Shown here piece after piece: positions 26,487-32,211 of a DNA stretch of 32,211 nt; position 1 is the first letter of the stretch, and each line of letters opens with the position of its first letter. Origin of the DNA: Candidatus Methylomirabilota bacterium (GTDB lineage Bacteria; Methylomirabilota; Methylomirabilia; Methylomirabilales; Methylomirabilaceae); contig JAHFDH010000006.1 in assembly GCA_023249055.1 (NCBI GenBank), forward strand, positions 1 through 32,211, in the 5' to 3' direction. Under the pieces are notes generated by a model. That model saw nothing but the letters and a program-made list of their open reading frames with translations. It had not been told where the DNA came from and made no database searches. Position numbers and translations under genes: made by a program.

Positions 26487-27569
26487 TCATCTCAATTTCA
26501 ATGTCGTGAGCGAGAGCAGAGCCAGGATAAACGAGATGATCCAGAACCGGACAATGATCTTCGGCTCCGCCATCCCATTCAACTCGTAGTGGTGATGGAT
26601 CGGCGCCATCCGGAAGACCCGTCGGCCGGTCGTTCGGTAGGAGAAAACCTGCAGGATCACCGAGATCGCCTCCGCCACGAACACCCCTCCGACAATGAGT
26701 AAGAGCAGTTCGCTCTTGACCAGAACCGCAAGCGTCGCCACAGCGGCCCCAAGCGCCAACGAGCCGGTGTCGCCCATAAAGAGCTGCGCGGGGTAGGTGT
26801 TGTACCAGAGAAATCCCAGGCTCGCCCCGACGATGGCGCCGCCAAAGATCGTCAGCTCCGAACTCTCCCTTACAAAGACAACCTGCAGATAGTGAGCGAT
26901 GCTGGCGTGTCCCGCAATGTATGCCAGGACCGTGTACGCCGCAGCGGAGATCAGGACCGGGCCGATAGCCAATCCATCCAAGCCGTCGGTCAGGTTCACC
27001 GCGTTTGACGCGCCGACGATCACCAGCGCCACGAACAGGACATAGCCCCAGCCCAGATCGGGTATCCAGTGCTTGAAGAAAGGAATAGCCAGCTTCGTGG
27101 TGTACGCATCGATAGGGTTGATGTACAGGAAGAGCCCGATAAACACGCTGGGAATCACCTGCCACAACAGTTTGGTCCTGGCTGACAGCCCCTTGCTGTT
27201 CTTGGCCACGACCTTCCGGTAGTCGTCGACGAACCCCACTGCTCCCATCCAGACCGTGCTGAACAGCGCAAGCCAGACGAACCGGTTGGTCAGATTCGCC
27301 CAGAGCAACGTCCCGATGCACACAGAGGCCAGGATCAGGAGACCGCCCATCGTGGGCGTTCCGGCCTTCTGCAGATGACCCGCCGGCCCGTCGTCTCTGA
27401 TGCTCTGGCCGATCTGCAACGTCTGAAGTCGGCGGATCAATGCCGGCCCCATCAGCAGACTGATCAGCAGCGCGGTGAGGATGGCCCCGGCCGTGCGGAA
27501 GGTCACGTACCGGAAAACGTTCAAAATAGTGTAGCTCTCGTGCCATGGGAACAATAGATGATATAGCAT
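26487..27569 (-). CDS. mraY: Phospho-N-acetylmuramoyl-pentapeptide transferase MraY
   Basis: MraY makes lipid I by transferring phospho-MurNAc-pentapeptide to undecaprenyl phosphate in the membrane. The 360-residue product has about ten helices with the family motifs [53 protein letters not shown] and the HHHYE loop ([10 protein letters not shown]). The ATG (27567-27569) lies 40 bases after ddl, in a gap holding degenerate CACCCTA heptamers. In the usual gene order mraY follows murF directly; here ddl intervenes. Confidence 0.98.
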
Positions 27570-27609: not shown

Positions 27610-28920
27610 TCACTTGCCGGGCGTCACCAGATGCCGCCGATCGACCAACGCCTTACCCTCTGTCGATTTGAACTGGGTTGACCGCTTGTCCCGATGAGTC
27701 TCAAGCGCTAATTCTACCAGGCGAACGATGAGCTCCGCCGGCTTTACCCCGCTCCGCTCCCAGAGGGTGAAGGACAGCGACCCCGGCATAGTATTGATCT
27801 CGTTGACGTACGGCCTCATGGCGGCTGAGTCGACCAGGAAATCAACCCGCGAGATCCCGCGCGAATCGATCGATTTGAAGGCCGCGGCCGCCATCGACCG
27901 TATCTCATCAGAAAGCGCCTGAGGAATCCTGGCGGGGATAATGCTCGGCGCCAGGTCTGCGCGCCCCGGCTTCTTATCCTCGGGGTATTTGTCACGGTAG
28001 CCCACCACCTCACCCGAGCTGATGAGCTCCTCACATTCCGAGACGGTCAACGCGTGATTGCCGAGGACGCCGCATTGCACCTCGATCCGCTGCTGTACGG
28101 CTCGCTCAACCAACACGCGGCAACTGAAGCGCATCGCGCGCTTTGCCAGGCTCACCGCTTCACCCGCATCATGAGCGACACCGATACCGACGCTGGAACC
28201 CGCCACCGCCGGCTTGACCACCACCGGATAGCACAGTGTGCGCTCAATCGCCTGCACGACGGCCGCCTCATCTTCCAGCAGTTCGCGCCGGGTAATGCCA
28301 ATCCCCTCGACAACGGGCAGGCCTGCGCCTTGAAATACGAGCTTGGACATAATCTTGTCCATGCCTACCGCCGAGGCGGCGACTCCAGCCCCGACATAGG
28401 GCAGATTGGCCAGTTCACACAGACCCTGAATCGTTCCATCCTCGCCATGCGTCCCATGAATGACCGGAAAGGCCACGTCGATGGCAGGATGAACCTGTTT
28501 GCGAAGCCAGCCTTTCCGTTCCTGCTGCGGCATCAACCCGCCGACCGACGGATCCGGCGCCAGAAAGAGCGGCTCCGCCCCCATTGCGCTCACGCCCCGG
28601 TCCAGGTTCTCAAGCTGCGGCGCGTATCGCTCGCGATTCAACCGCAGCTTTTCGGCGTCGAGCTTCGCTCGCTCAGCCGGTTCCGCTATGATGTCGCGTT
28701 CCGCCAGCTTTCGTATCTCGGCATCGACCGTCAACAATTCCCGAACCGCCTCGCCGGTAAGCCACGTACCCTCCGCCGTCAGAAAGATCGGCAGCGTCTC
28801 GAACCGGTCCTGTAACGACAGCAAGACCTCATAGACCTTGCTGGCGGTCAGGATCGAAATTTCACGCTCCACCGAGCGGCTTCCGAAGATCAGCCCTATG
28901 CGTGTCAGACTGCTGTTCAT
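27610..28920 (-). CDS. ddl: D-alanine--D-alanine ligase-like ATP-grasp enzyme (long form)
   Basis: The expected role is making D-Ala-D-Ala, the dipeptide that MurF adds. The product has 436 residues, well above the usual 300-370. The N-terminal FGSRSVEREIS (12-22) keeps the catalytic Glu18. An unusual charged helical insertion lies at about 55-140. Then follow FPVIHGTHGEDGTIQG (151-166), YVGAGVAASAVGMDKIMSK, KPAVAGSSVGIG, GYRDKYPEDKK with the ligase-type Lys-Tyr pair, and NEINTMPGSLSFTLWE (373-388), which differs from the NTMPGFT form of common Ddl. A polar tail ends the protein. Its ATG overlaps the murF-like stop as ATGA, so the two are translated together. It sits between murF and mraY instead of between murB and ftsQ. 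D-Ala-D-Lac activity is less likely given the Lys-Tyr pair, but not excluded. Confidence 0.9.
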   Translation of the reverse strand: MNSSLTRIGLIFGSRSVEREISILTASKVYEVLLSLQDRFETLPIFLTAEGTWLTGEAVRELLTVDAEIRKLAERDIIAEPAERAKLDAEKLRLNRERYAPQLENLDRGVSAMGAEPLFLAPDPSVGGLMPQQERKGWLRKQVHPAIDVAFPVIHGTHGEDGTIQGLCELANLPYVGAGVAASAVGMDKIMSKLVFQGAGLPVVEGIGITRRELLEDEAAVVQAIERTLCYPVVVKPAVAGSSVGIGVAHDAGEAVSLAKRAMRFSCRVLVERAVQQRIEVQCGVLGNHALTVSECEELISSGEVVGYRDKYPEDKKPGRADLAPSIIPARIPQALSDEIRSMAAAAFKSIDSRGISRVDFLVDSAAMRPYVNEINTMPGSLSFTLWERSGVKPAELIVRLVELALETHRDKRSTQFKSTEGKALVDRRHLVTPGK

Positions 28921-30638
28921 GCAAATTCCAAGTAGCTGTCCGGCAGCCGATTCTCATACAGCAGCACGTCGCCTTCGCAGACGATCGCATTGAGACAGTC
29001 GGCGACGTCATCGGCATGCCTGGCGGTCAGGACTCGACTTCCGGCAAAACCGGCCTCGCGAAGCCCTTCCCGCAGCGGTTGTGTCTGCTGCGGCCCGACC
29101 AATACCACATAATCGCATACTGCGGCCGCCGCCCGGCCCAACCGCCGGTTCTCCTCCGCCTCGATCTGGCCCAGTTCTACCAGTCCCGGCGTGATAAGGA
29201 TCTTCGAACCCCCCTCAAACTGGCTGAGAACCTCCAGGGCCATCTGCGCCCCGCGCGGGTTGGCGTTGGCGACATCGATCAGCTTGATAACCCCGCCTTC
29301 TTCGCGAATCTCCAGGCGTTTTGGGGCCGGCGCGAGCGTCCTCACGCTATCGGCAATCTCCTCCAGAGGCACGCCACACTCCAACGCGGCAGCCGTTGCC
29401 CCAAGGATATTGCCGATATTCCAACCGCCCAGCAACCTGGTCTCGAACATGGCGGCGCCATACTCGGTCTCCACGCGAAAGGCCGAACCCTTACTGGAGA
29501 GCTTGACATCTTTCCCGCGAACGCTCAGCGCTCTCTCATCCTCGCCGATCCCATATAAGCGCACGCGCCGACCTTCTCGTCCGGCGCGTTCGGCCAGCCG
29601 CAGACAGTTCGGATCGTCGGCGTTCACGATCGCCAAACCATCCGGCGGAAGCGACGCAATCAACTCATACTTTGCTTCGGCGATCCGCTCCGGCGTGCCG
29701 AACCGCTCGAGGTGCTGGACACCGACCGCCGTGAGGATGCCGAACCGGGGGCGCAGGATCTCACACACCTCCCTGATCTCGCCGGGGCCGTATGCCGCTA
29801 CCTCGACAACGAAAAAGCGATGATCATCCCGCAAGGCCTCACGGACGATCCGCACAATGCCCATCGTGGTGTTGACCCCATCAGGCGTCTTGAAGACCGA
29901 ATAGCGCCTCTGAAGCAACGCGGCAGTAATAAACTTGGTCGTAGTTTTTCCGTAGCTCCCCGTAATCCCGACCACCTCTCCGGGATACCGGCGCATGCGC
30001 GTCGCCGCCTGCGCGTAGAAGCGTCGATTGACCGTCCGCTCCCACGGCGCGAGACTCAGATTTGCAACGAGGATGGTGCCCGCTGCCGCTTCGGACATGA
30101 CGCACAGGCCGGCGGCCAGGCCGATGCCGACCAGCAGGACGCGAGGAGCCGCCGTCAGCTGAGACAGCACAGCCGCAGTCAGCCATGCGGCGGCCAGCAT
30201 AGCCGCCACTGCCAGGACGCACGTGACCGCCGCCAGGCGCACCGTACGGGGCGTCCATTGCAGCCGCTGGCTGACCTGGAGCGAGGCGTACCGGGCGCTC
30301 AACCATCGCCCGGCGGCCAGCCACGCGATGTACAAGATACCTGTTCCGGCGTACCCGAAGCCGGGGATGGAAGAGAGCGGCGACCACGCAAGGACGATTC
30401 CGGCCCCAAGGACCGCTACCTGGGCGAGGGCTCCTCGGCCGTCCAGGATGATGCGCCAGTGTCTGGCGACCCAGCTCCGCAGGCGCGCACTGCTGTACCG
30501 CTCCAACTGGGTGAGGTAGATCAGATCCAGATGACGCGCCACCACAACCGCCGCATACGGCAGCAGACCGGTGACGACCCGGCCTGCGAATGAAGGTCCG
30601 AGCACCGTATCCGCCCGTATCACCGGCTGTCCTGCCAC
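28917..30638 (-). CDS. murF: Membrane-anchored MurF-like Mur ligase
   Basis: By position and ligase domains this should add D-Ala-D-Ala to UDP-MurNAc-tripeptide. The 573-residue product departs from normal MurF. Residues 1-200 carry about four or five hydrophobic segments (near 21-35, 70-85, 97-112, 133-160, 166-190) in place of the soluble N-terminal domain that binds the UDP-sugar. The Mur ligase central domain follows, with ATP loop GITGSYGKTTTK (224-235), and the C-terminal domain has LEIREEGGVIKLID, VANANPRGAQMALEVL, ITPGLVELG and YENRLPDSYLEF. MurF usually shows DxYNANP; here the tyrosine is missing (DVANANP). The start is GTG (30636-30638) with GAGGGGG five bases upstream; it overlaps the hydrolase gene by 19 bases. 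It may be the cell's only MurF or a ligase acting on a lipid-linked or other substrate. Confidence 0.85.
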   Translation of the reverse strand: MAGQPVIRADTVLGPSFAGRVVTGLLPYAAVVVARHLDLIYLTQLERYSSARLRSWVARHWRIILDGRGALAQVAVLGAGIVLAWSPLSSIPGFGYAGTGILYIAWLAAGRWLSARYASLQVSQRLQWTPRTVRLAAVTCVLAVAAMLAAAWLTAAVLSQLTAAPRVLLVGIGLAAGLCVMSEAAAGTILVANLSLAPWERTVNRRFYAQAATRMRRYPGEVVGITGSYGKTTTKFITAALLQRRYSVFKTPDGVNTTMGIVRIVREALRDDHRFFVVEVAAYGPGEIREVCEILRPRFGILTAVGVQHLERFGTPERIAEAKYELIASLPPDGLAIVNADDPNCLRLAERAGREGRRVRLYGIGEDERALSVRGKDVKLSSKGSAFRVETEYGAAMFETRLLGGWNIGNILGATAAALECGVPLEEIADSVRTLAPAPKRLEIREEGGVIKLIDVANANPRGAQMALEVLSQFEGGSKILITPGLVELGQIEAEENRRLGRAAAAVCDYVVLVGPQQTQPLREGLREAGFAGSRVLTARHADDVADCLNAIVCEGDVLLYENRLPDSYLEFA

Positions 30639-31387
30639 AAGAACCCCCTCACTACCCGGCTAAAACGGTCCGGACTGTCAATAAACGGGAAATGGCCGGC
30701 TCCCTCAAACACCTCCAACTGCGAGCCCTGTATGCCGCGCGCCATGATCTGCATCGAAGACAAAGGCACCTCCTGATCACGATCGCCCCAGATGATCAGA
30801 GTGGGCGCACGAATAGCCGCTAAGATCCCTCGAAGATCTTCGGCTACGACCTTCACCAGCGTGGCGCGCATCGATCCCGCATTCCGATAGTCTCGAGATC
30901 CTATGCGCCCATAGAGTTCGGCAATAATCCGCTCGCCCGCCCTGCCCCACCCAGGCAGCGAAAAGAGCCGCTTTGCCAGCTTCACGGCGCCGACCTTGAC
31001 ACGATGCAGAAGTCCTCGTCTCGGGCGGATCCCCGCGCTAGCTACCAGCACGAGGCGTCGAACCCTGTCGGACCTTTGAGCGGCCAGGACAAGCGCGATT
31101 CGGCCTCCGAATGAATGACCGATCAGATCGGCTGCCGGGATACCGACGCGATCCATAAATGCCTCGACATAGGACGCATACTCCCATGTCCCCCACGTCG
31201 TGGCAGCAGATGGGGTCCAGCCAAAACCGGGCAGGTCAAGGGCGTACACTCGGAATCGATCCTCTAAGGCCTTGGCAACCGGGCTTAGAGATTCGGCTGA
31301 ACTGCCCCATCCATGCAGGAGAACCACCGGCCTTCCTTCTCCCCACACCATAAAATGGGTGTCCAGGTCACCGACACGAATCAGCAC
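30620..31387 (-). CDS. Alpha/beta-fold hydrolase embedded in the mur cluster
   Basis: The 255-residue cytosolic protein has a complete alpha/beta-hydrolase core. The oxyanion-side motif is LLHGWGSS (23-30), the nucleophile elbow GHSFGG has Ser92, the acid is Asp204 in IIWGDRDQEVP, and the histidine is His232 in GAGHFPF. A lid region of about 60 residues (about 120-185) is basic. Its substrate cannot be predicted. The gene lies between murE and the murF-like gene, with a 19-base overlap to the latter, so it is very likely made with it. The GTG start (31385-31387) has AGGG about five bases upstream. An esterase acting on a cell wall or lipid-linked intermediate is one possibility (inference). 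Confidence 0.85.
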   Translation of the reverse strand: MLIRVGDLDTHFMVWGEGRPVVLLHGWGSSAESLSPVAKALEDRFRVYALDLPGFGWTPSAATTWGTWEYASYVEAFMDRVGIPAADLIGHSFGGRIALVLAAQRSDRVRRLVLVASAGIRPRRGLLHRVKVGAVKLAKRLFSLPGWGRAGERIIAELYGRIGSRDYRNAGSMRATLVKVVAEDLRGILAAIRAPTLIIWGDRDQEVPLSSMQIMARGIQGSQLEVFEGAGHFPFIDSPDRFSRVVRGFLWQDSR

Positions 31388-31451: not shown

Positions 31452-31486
31452 CACCCTACACCCTATACCCTGCACCCTACACCCTG
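31452..31486. repeat. Heptamer array, 5 x CACCCTA family
   Basis: Five in-phase units (CACCCTA, CACCCTA, TACCCTG, CACCCTA, CACCCTG) overlap the 3' end of murE and supply its TAG stop codon on the minus strand. Together with the opposite array at 31403-31423 it could form a long hairpin in the transcript between murE and the hydrolase gene. Confidence 0.9.
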
Positions 31487-32211
31487 TCTTCGCAGCAGAA
31501 CCCCAACTCGTGAAGCGCCTCTCGAGCCACCAGCCGGTCGTCAAAAGCAATCGTACGATCGCGGAGAATCTGGTAGGTCTCGTGCCCCTTCCCCGCGATC
31601 ACCACCATATCGCCTCTCCCCGCCAACGAAAGGGCCTCTCGAATTGCCATCCCTCGATCTAAAATTGTAACATAGCCCTTTCCCTGACCCCACACCTTTT
31701 TCGCCCCGGTTTCGACCTCCTCGATGATCTGATGAGGGTCTTCGCCGCGAGGATTGTCGGAGGTGATGATCGTAAAGTCGGCCAACTGCAAAGCCGCTTC
31801 TCCCATAAGCGGGCGCTTCCCCCGATCGCGCTCTCCCCCGCATCCGAACAGAACGATCAGACGTCCCGGACAGCACTGCCGCGCCATGCGGAGGACACGC
31901 CGCAGCGCGTCAGGGGTATGCGCATAATCGACCATCACACTGAACGCCTGCCCCTCATTCACCCGCTCGCACCGACCAGGAACGTGGCGGAGCGCGGCGA
32001 TCCCGTCTGCCACCACAGACAGATCCGCGCCCAGATGCAAGCCGGTGGCCGCCGCCGCCAGGATGTTGGACAGGTTGTAGCGCCCCAACAGCGGGGAGTG
32101 AATCGCCGTTGTCCCCCACGGGGTCTGCAGCCGGCACCGGATTCCATCCGGCCCCATATCGACATCGGTGACCGACAGATCCGCCGGCCCTTCTGCGCTG
32201 TAGGTGTAGCG
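31477..32211 (-). CDS. murE: UDP-N-acetylmuramoyl-tripeptide synthetase MurE (partial, C-terminal part)
   Basis: MurE adds the third peptide residue to UDP-MurNAc-L-Ala-D-Glu. The gene enters from the right edge; 244 residues of the C-terminal half are visible. Signatures are GRYNLSNILAAAA, VMVDYAHTPDALRRVL, LIVLFGCGGERDRGKRPLMG, TSDNPRGEDP and VVIAGKGHETYQ. The DNPR motif marks enzymes that add meso-diaminopimelate instead of lysine. The stop codon TAG lies inside a heptamer repeat array, so the last residues (about EDRV) may be repeat-derived. 89 bases separate it from the hydrolase gene. Confidence 0.97.
   Translation of the reverse strand, partial: RYTYSAEGPADLSVTDVDMGPDGIRCRLQTPWGTTAIHSPLLGRYNLSNILAAAATGLHLGADLSVVADGIAALRHVPGRCERVNEGQAFSVMVDYAHTPDALRRVLRMARQCCPGRLIVLFGCGGERDRGKRPLMGEAALQLADFTIITSDNPRGEDPHQIIEEVETGAKKVWGQGKGYVTILDRGMAIREALSLAGRGDMVVIAGKGHETYQILRDRTIAFDDRLVAREALHELGFCCEDRV

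Follow-up and report, generated by a model that had tools for sequence, protein, structure and literature searches.

The window analysed here is a whole contig of 32,211 nucleotides (JAHFDH010000006.1; G000:C67) from the Candidatus Methylomirabilota assembly GCA_023249055.1, a genome with Candidatus Methylomirabilis as its nearest named relatives. Between murE and mraY its minus strand carries three overlapping genes, which encode an alpha/beta hydrolase, a membrane-embedded MurF-type ligase (hereafter MurFm) and a D-Ala-D-Ala ligase (Ddl). Judging from their sequences, these genes very probably constitute the replacement for murF and ddl in this lineage, made up of a membrane-embedded MurFm, a Ddl of its own and an obligate serine hydrolase. 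The comparative evidence gives good support to the view that MurFm stands in for MurF, that it is a membrane protein and that it pairs with a distinct form of Ddl and with one hydrolase family. Coordinates and family matches are as follows:

30620..31387, minus strand: alpha/beta hydrolase, 255 residues (Pfam Abhydrolase_1, 6e-37; catalytic Ser92 in GHSFGG, Asp204 and His232)
28917..30638, minus strand: MurFm, 573 residues (PF08245 and PF02875; TIGR01143, 218 bits)
27610..28920, minus strand: module Ddl, 436 residues (PF07478 and PF01820; TIGR01205, 248.8 bits)

The nearest relative of MurFm is MurF, both by sequence and by fold. The middle and C-terminal domains of MurF are intact (Pfam PF08245 and PF02875) and no family matches the N-terminal domain. 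The score against TIGR01143 does not reach the curated cut-off of 288.6 bits, and the profile is aligned only from its position 64; in most MurFm members the match begins around 58-65, and the UDP-binding domain is absent in every one of them. The AlphaFold model of MurFm (predicted local distance difference test 88.7, predicted template modelling score 0.86) retrieved MurF structures in a fold search, the best being 4qf5 (368 columns, 26% identity). The ATP loop, Lys323, His309, Glu279, NxNP and ELG make up the core of Mur ligases. In the alignment of 46 MurFm homologues, K323, E279, H309, NxNP and ELG are invariant (46/46), as are most positions of the loop. Two stretches of the ligase core can be located in the window:

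29940..29963, minus strand: ATP-binding loop TGSYGKTT, residues 226-233 (T226, G227, G230, K231 and T232 invariant, 46/46)
28938..28961, minus strand: LYENRLPD motif at the C-terminal end (LYENDLPDHYP elsewhere), a mark of the family recovered in two alignments

The place of the missing domain is occupied by a helical region for which a Pfam search of the approximately 210 residues gave no family above cut-off:

29988..30638, minus strand: N-terminal helical membrane domain, residues 1-217, where the UDP-N-acetylmuramic acid (UDP-MurNAc)-binding domain would be (AlphaFold helices, lysine plus arginine pattern)
30495..30509, minus strand: Q44-x-E46-x-Y48 motif following the first helix (invariant in 46/46 sequences)

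The membrane N-terminus proposed for the ligase in a preliminary description of this DNA is backed by hydropathy, by the AlphaFold helices (17-45, 67-85, 95-116, 130-161 and 166-183, within a helical region spanning 17-217) and by a positive-inside pattern. The cytoplasmic segments contain on average 5.0, 6.4 and, in the third, 0.8 residues of lysine plus arginine, whereas the outer loops average 0.04 and 0.3. This fits a topology with the N-terminus outside and the C-terminus inside, in which the ligase domains would be cytoplasmic. Members of the MurF family are soluble, which is at odds with the roughly five membrane helices predicted in MurFm. Besides the QxExY motif, T129 and R131 (TxR) are also invariant in the 46 sequences; given the predicted topology, both motifs would lie at the cytoplasmic face of the membrane.

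The absence of murF or ddl is read here from profile searches, and many of the genomes are incomplete. In the complete, single-contig genome of the window's genus (G005), the searches revealed neither a canonical murF nor another Ddl scoring close to the family cut-off, in agreement with the earlier proposal that the unit takes the place of murF. Among 95 Methylomirabilota genomes, MurFm is restricted to the window's family and to a second family, f5; three weak matches in family f4 were rejected as ordinary MurF. Its relatives outside the phylum were found in the Actinomycetota (Acidimicrobiia, Actinotalea, Arsenicicoccus and Salinibacterium) and in 8 of 39 genomes of a third phylum, and the MurFm sequences form a single clade spanning the three phyla in the ligase tree (97.6 in the Shimodaira-Hasegawa-like approximate likelihood ratio test, SH-aLRT). 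In an actinobacterial sample of 53 genomes, canonical MurF was above cut-off in none of the 30 that have MurFm versus 22 of the 23 that lack it, and in the 23rd it is present but split over two contigs. The corresponding Fisher p of 5e-14 is descriptive rather than a strict probability, since the genomes are related and kinship was not corrected for. A second set of 16 MurFm genomes from outside the phylum, named species included, had no MurF above cut-off either; in the third phylum, canonical MurF was looked for in one genome only. The exclusion pattern holds independently in Methylomirabilota, and MurFm is the sole MurF-type enzyme in the genomes examined. Similar ligases may exist in Patescibacteria as well. 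The module may be mobile or ancient, as was first suggested. Two routes of transfer were considered and rejected: plasmid matches cover the ligase core only (at most 60% of the query) and the annotated ones are murF, and the viral scan returned no match. One record titled Acidobacteriota (L106) contains a MurFm and a neighbouring gene that resemble Acidimicrobiia loci (L088), and its contig may be mis-binned.

The three genes also tend to occur together. A recurrence of the grouping in other phyla had been anticipated, and a neighbourhood search indeed found the three families as a unit outside Methylomirabilota. The triad is complete and on the same strand in 31 of the 37 loci read outside Methylomirabilota, the remainder being cut by contig ends (3), MurFm alone (2) or MurFm with Ddl (1); it is likewise complete in 13 of 14 further actinobacterial genomes, the Ddl side being cut by a contig end in the last one. 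MurFm was seen inside the dcw cluster only in Methylomirabilota; in the loci read outside this phylum, murE and mraY are absent around the triads, which therefore do not owe their linkage to a shared position. Even where the genes are unlinked, a hydrolase orthologue (200-280 bits) is present in all 8 MurFm genomes of the third phylum and in the actinobacterial genome G096, where a triad-type Ddl (453 bits) likewise stands by itself; the best hydrolase in the tested genomes with a canonical murF reaches at most 116 bits. The preliminary description had named two findings as contrary to the unit, namely a canonical soluble murF plus ddl elsewhere in the genome and a lack of co-occurrence of the three families in other genomes; both were examined, and neither refuted it. 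In one actinobacterial lineage (L083, L092, L180 and L186), MurFm, the triad-type Ddl and the hydrolase lie at separate genome sites, as shown for G096. In the third phylum (L182, L185 and L188), the unlinked hydrolase adjoins a helicase-like gene of about 800 codons, and pilin-like genes are found in most loci.

The Ddl of the module is recognizable as a member of its family, as it passes the TIGR01205 cut-off of 245.65 bits (the Ddl of G005 scores 242.5 bits) and its best fold match is the S. aureus Ddl 7u9k. It departs from ordinary Ddls at two places:

27760..27795, minus strand: NTMPG-SLSFTLW, four residues shorter than in ordinary Ddl (NTIPGFTATSVYPKLW), at the second D-Ala site (alignment)
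28501..28752, minus strand: extra helical segment in the Ddl N-domain, with approximate bounds (model helices 57-77 and 81-106)

The deletion of four residues immediately follows PG in the N-x-x-P-G motif (PGSLSFTLW versus PGFTATSVYPKLW), adjacent to the position at which solved Ddls bind the second D-Ala. The resulting PG[SA]-x4-L[WF] is present in every triad Ddl that could be read through this region, in three phyla, whereas the full-length loop is kept in 8/8 ordinary Ddls compared, including those of a sister family of the same order. As for the length of 436 residues, which had been described as unusual, it is real but it is not a feature of the triad: it results from a lineage-specific helical insertion in the N-domain, which is mostly absent in the actinobacterial triad Ddls, whose main group measures about 355-398 residues. 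PGA instead of PGS is found in the triad Ddls of L096, L099, L101, L104, L109-L113, L116, L117, L144 and L147. This set includes all those of Actinotalea, Arsenicicoccus and Salinibacterium, genera in which the genomes tested retain an ordinary Ddl besides; PGA also occurs in L096, L144 and L147, and the genome of L096 shows one Ddl. In Actinotalea and a relative (L101, L099, L104, L109, L110 and L112; at about 10.5-13 kb in the loci), the two kinds of Ddl are placed end to end, the triad Ddl being followed at a short distance by an ordinary ddl on the other strand.

Across 18 homologues of the hydrolase, drawn from two phyla, there is no variation at the catalytic S92, D204 and H232 or at the cap residues G163, S164, D166, G171, R174 and E183, of which D166, R174 and E183 are charged. 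Such a conserved cap suggests one shared substrate, which is perhaps zwitterionic and peptide-like. No NCBIfam model among those shown for this protein is at cut-off, and an assignment from the nearest solved relatives was discarded, these being mostly generic esterases, depolymerases and meta-cleavage hydrolases that are too general to name a substrate. The hydrolase might be a serine peptidase or esterase that removes wrong or surplus dipeptide or precursor, a role that we advance as a doubtful suggestion.

The peculiarities of the Ddl and the hydrolase invite another explanation, according to which the unit would make some other polymer or a modified stem (with another D-amino acid, an ester or an amide), the wall being without ordinary D-Ala-D-Ala. 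All triad members have a shortened acceptor-site loop in Ddl, one would hardly expect MurF to be paired with a hydrolase, and a membrane-bound Mur ligase beside an ATP-grasp enzyme resembles the peptide-polymer synthases. Nevertheless, the window Ddl is above the family cut-off, the ligase is nearest to MurF in sequence and fold, and the exclusion with canonical MurF points to the same job. Moreover, peptidoglycan sacculi of Methylomirabilis lanthanidiphila are digested by lysozyme, although the stems were not analysed there (PMC8671808). Taken together, we find this explanation improbable.

Several observations weigh against a simple replacement of murF and ddl by a dedicated triad. The window assembly is 83.5% complete, and the absence of another murF and ddl from it is inferred from its relatives. 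In the Acidimicrobiia genomes tested, the triad Ddl is the only one, but Actinotalea, Arsenicicoccus and Salinibacterium retain a second, ordinary Ddl. The triad Ddls are not recovered as one clade in the tree, even if a single clade is not rejected (approximately unbiased test, p 0.52). The unlinked genes in L083, L092 and the third phylum indicate that the proteins need not form a fixed complex encoded in a single operon. Finally, genome G511 has a hydrolase orthologue and no MurFm above threshold.

The context of the three genes in the window is given by two neighbours of the same strand:

31477..32211, minus strand: 3' part of murE, truncated by the contig end (DNPR motif present; 5' part at L008:1-900)
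26487..27569, minus strand: mraY (TIGR00445, 417 bits)

The minus-strand order is thus murE-hydrolase-MurFm-Ddl-mraY; coordinates and family matches establish, as initially described, that the three genes lie between murE and mraY with overlaps of 19 bases (hydrolase/MurFm) and 4 bases (MurFm/Ddl). The longer overlap is contingent on the chosen GTG start, and residues 1-13 of MurFm are of low confidence in the AlphaFold model; the hydrolase and ligase genes usually overlap by 4 bases in other lineages. The DNPR motif of this MurE is presumably the mark of meso-diaminopimelate-type enzymes. The gene continues on contig C107, alongside pbp, ftsL and mraW; a match on that contig that suggested a second MurF was rejected, as it is the 5' half of murE. 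The fragmented bin and the murE split across contigs could raise the suspicion that the module is an artefact of a single metagenome bin, through contamination, misassembly or a spurious gene. This is refuted by the conservation of the arrangement, which is kept, contig-end cuts aside, wherever a neighbourhood of the window's genus or of family f5 was read, including a single-contig genome (L040), as well as by the presence of the module in isolates, Actinotalea lenta and Arsenicicoccus bolidensis among them. Families f2, f3 and f4 of the same order have murE-murF-mraY, with an ordinary murF in that slot. One f3 genome has, in addition to its native cluster on C14, another complete dcw cluster (L047, G026:C19:30000-47000) that includes an ordinary murF and an ordinary ddl of its own and the proteins of which are 31-61% identical to Methylomirabilis proteins.

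In the mechanism that we propose, D-Ala-D-Ala would be made by the Ddl, and MurFm, anchored by its five or so helices, would spend ATP to attach this dipeptide, at the membrane, to the tripeptide stem, with the hydrolase as its obligate partner. A single machine assembled from the three proteins, production at a ratio set by the gene overlaps and an editing hydrolase, as first suggested, are conjectural. The acceptor may be a lipid-linked tripeptide (lipid I or II) and not UDP-MurNAc-tripeptide, a possibility that we regard as evenly balanced; it is favored by the loss of the UDP-binding domain and by the conservation of QxExY and TxR at what would be the cytoplasmic membrane face. It is weakened by the fact that MurFm could bind UDP-MurNAc in a manner invisible from its sequence. 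MurT is devoid of the same domain, which its authors considered unnecessary and expected to clash with the membrane (PMC6113224). S. aureus cells with little MurF incorporate tripeptide into their wall (PMC9603463), so later enzymes can handle tripeptide. The fuller scenario, in which the last peptide step would come after MraY and MurFm would act on lipid-linked tripeptide with a dedicated Ddl and a required hydrolase in several lineages, seems to us possible, at slightly less than an even chance.

Alternatively, MurFm could carry out ordinary MurF chemistry on UDP-MurNAc-tripeptide, its membrane domain being merely a tether that keeps it beside MraY for the hand-over of the product. The catalytic residues of the ligase core are all kept, the later enzymes MraY, FtsW and MurG look ordinary in the window, and the module adjoins mraY in Methylomirabilota, all of which such a tether would accommodate. 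Yet, the UDP-binding domain of MurC-F is missing in every MurFm, a loss that a mere tether would not demand, and mraY is not close to these genes in any locus read outside Methylomirabilota. We consider this alternative a credible one that nevertheless stays below an even chance.

Whatever its acceptor, MurFm can be compared with several known systems. It shares with MurF (TIGR01143; 4qf5, 3zl8, 4cvk) the middle and C-terminal domains, the ATP loop, the catalytic Lys, His and Glu, NxNP, ELG and a place in dcw, the two proteins being mutually exclusive; contrary to MurF, it has no UDP-binding N-domain, it has about five membrane helices and the LYEN(D/R)LPD C-terminal motif, and it scores below the curated cut-off. 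MurFm thus seems to work like MurF and to replace it, but since it differs in three defining features (N-domain, score and solubility), it is best filed as a variant of MurF and not as a member of the family. MurT, from the lipid II isoglutaminyl synthase MurT/GatD, is another Mur ligase that lacks the UDP-binding domain, and its substrate is lipid II, but it has a short N-terminus and no membrane domain; MurFm obtains 22-29 bits with the MurT models NF045635 and NF052464, for which the cut-offs are 800, and no GatD gene is present in the window's module, the only place where it was sought. The triad Ddls have the fold, the ATP-grasp core and the KY and R/D/E/N catalytic positions of Ddl (TIGR01205), from which they differ by the four-residue deletion at the second D-Ala site and, in Methylomirabilota, by the long N-domain insert. 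The hydrolase has the fold and catalytic triad of BioH, esterase and meta-cleavage alpha/beta hydrolases, but it has its own conserved cap and its distribution tracks that of MurFm. We found no description of the MurFm module in the open-access library searched, which leaves out most subscription journals, so that it may have been reported elsewhere.

MurF, an antibiotic target, is usually presented as soluble and as acting ahead of the membrane steps. Bacteria from at least three phyla, including the culturable Actinotalea and Arsenicicoccus, seem to use instead a membrane-embedded enzyme whose membrane domain is undescribed and whose hydrolase partner is unexplained. MurFm would account for gaps in the annotation of murF in these groups and would mark a distinct form of the drug target. 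It also raises two testable questions, namely whether peptidoglycan precursors are always assembled in one order and what role the hydrolase plays. If the last peptide step does follow MraY, the order of the pathway in these bacteria differs from that of textbooks. A step that is essential and targeted by antibiotics may run at the membrane there, in a manner not yet described.

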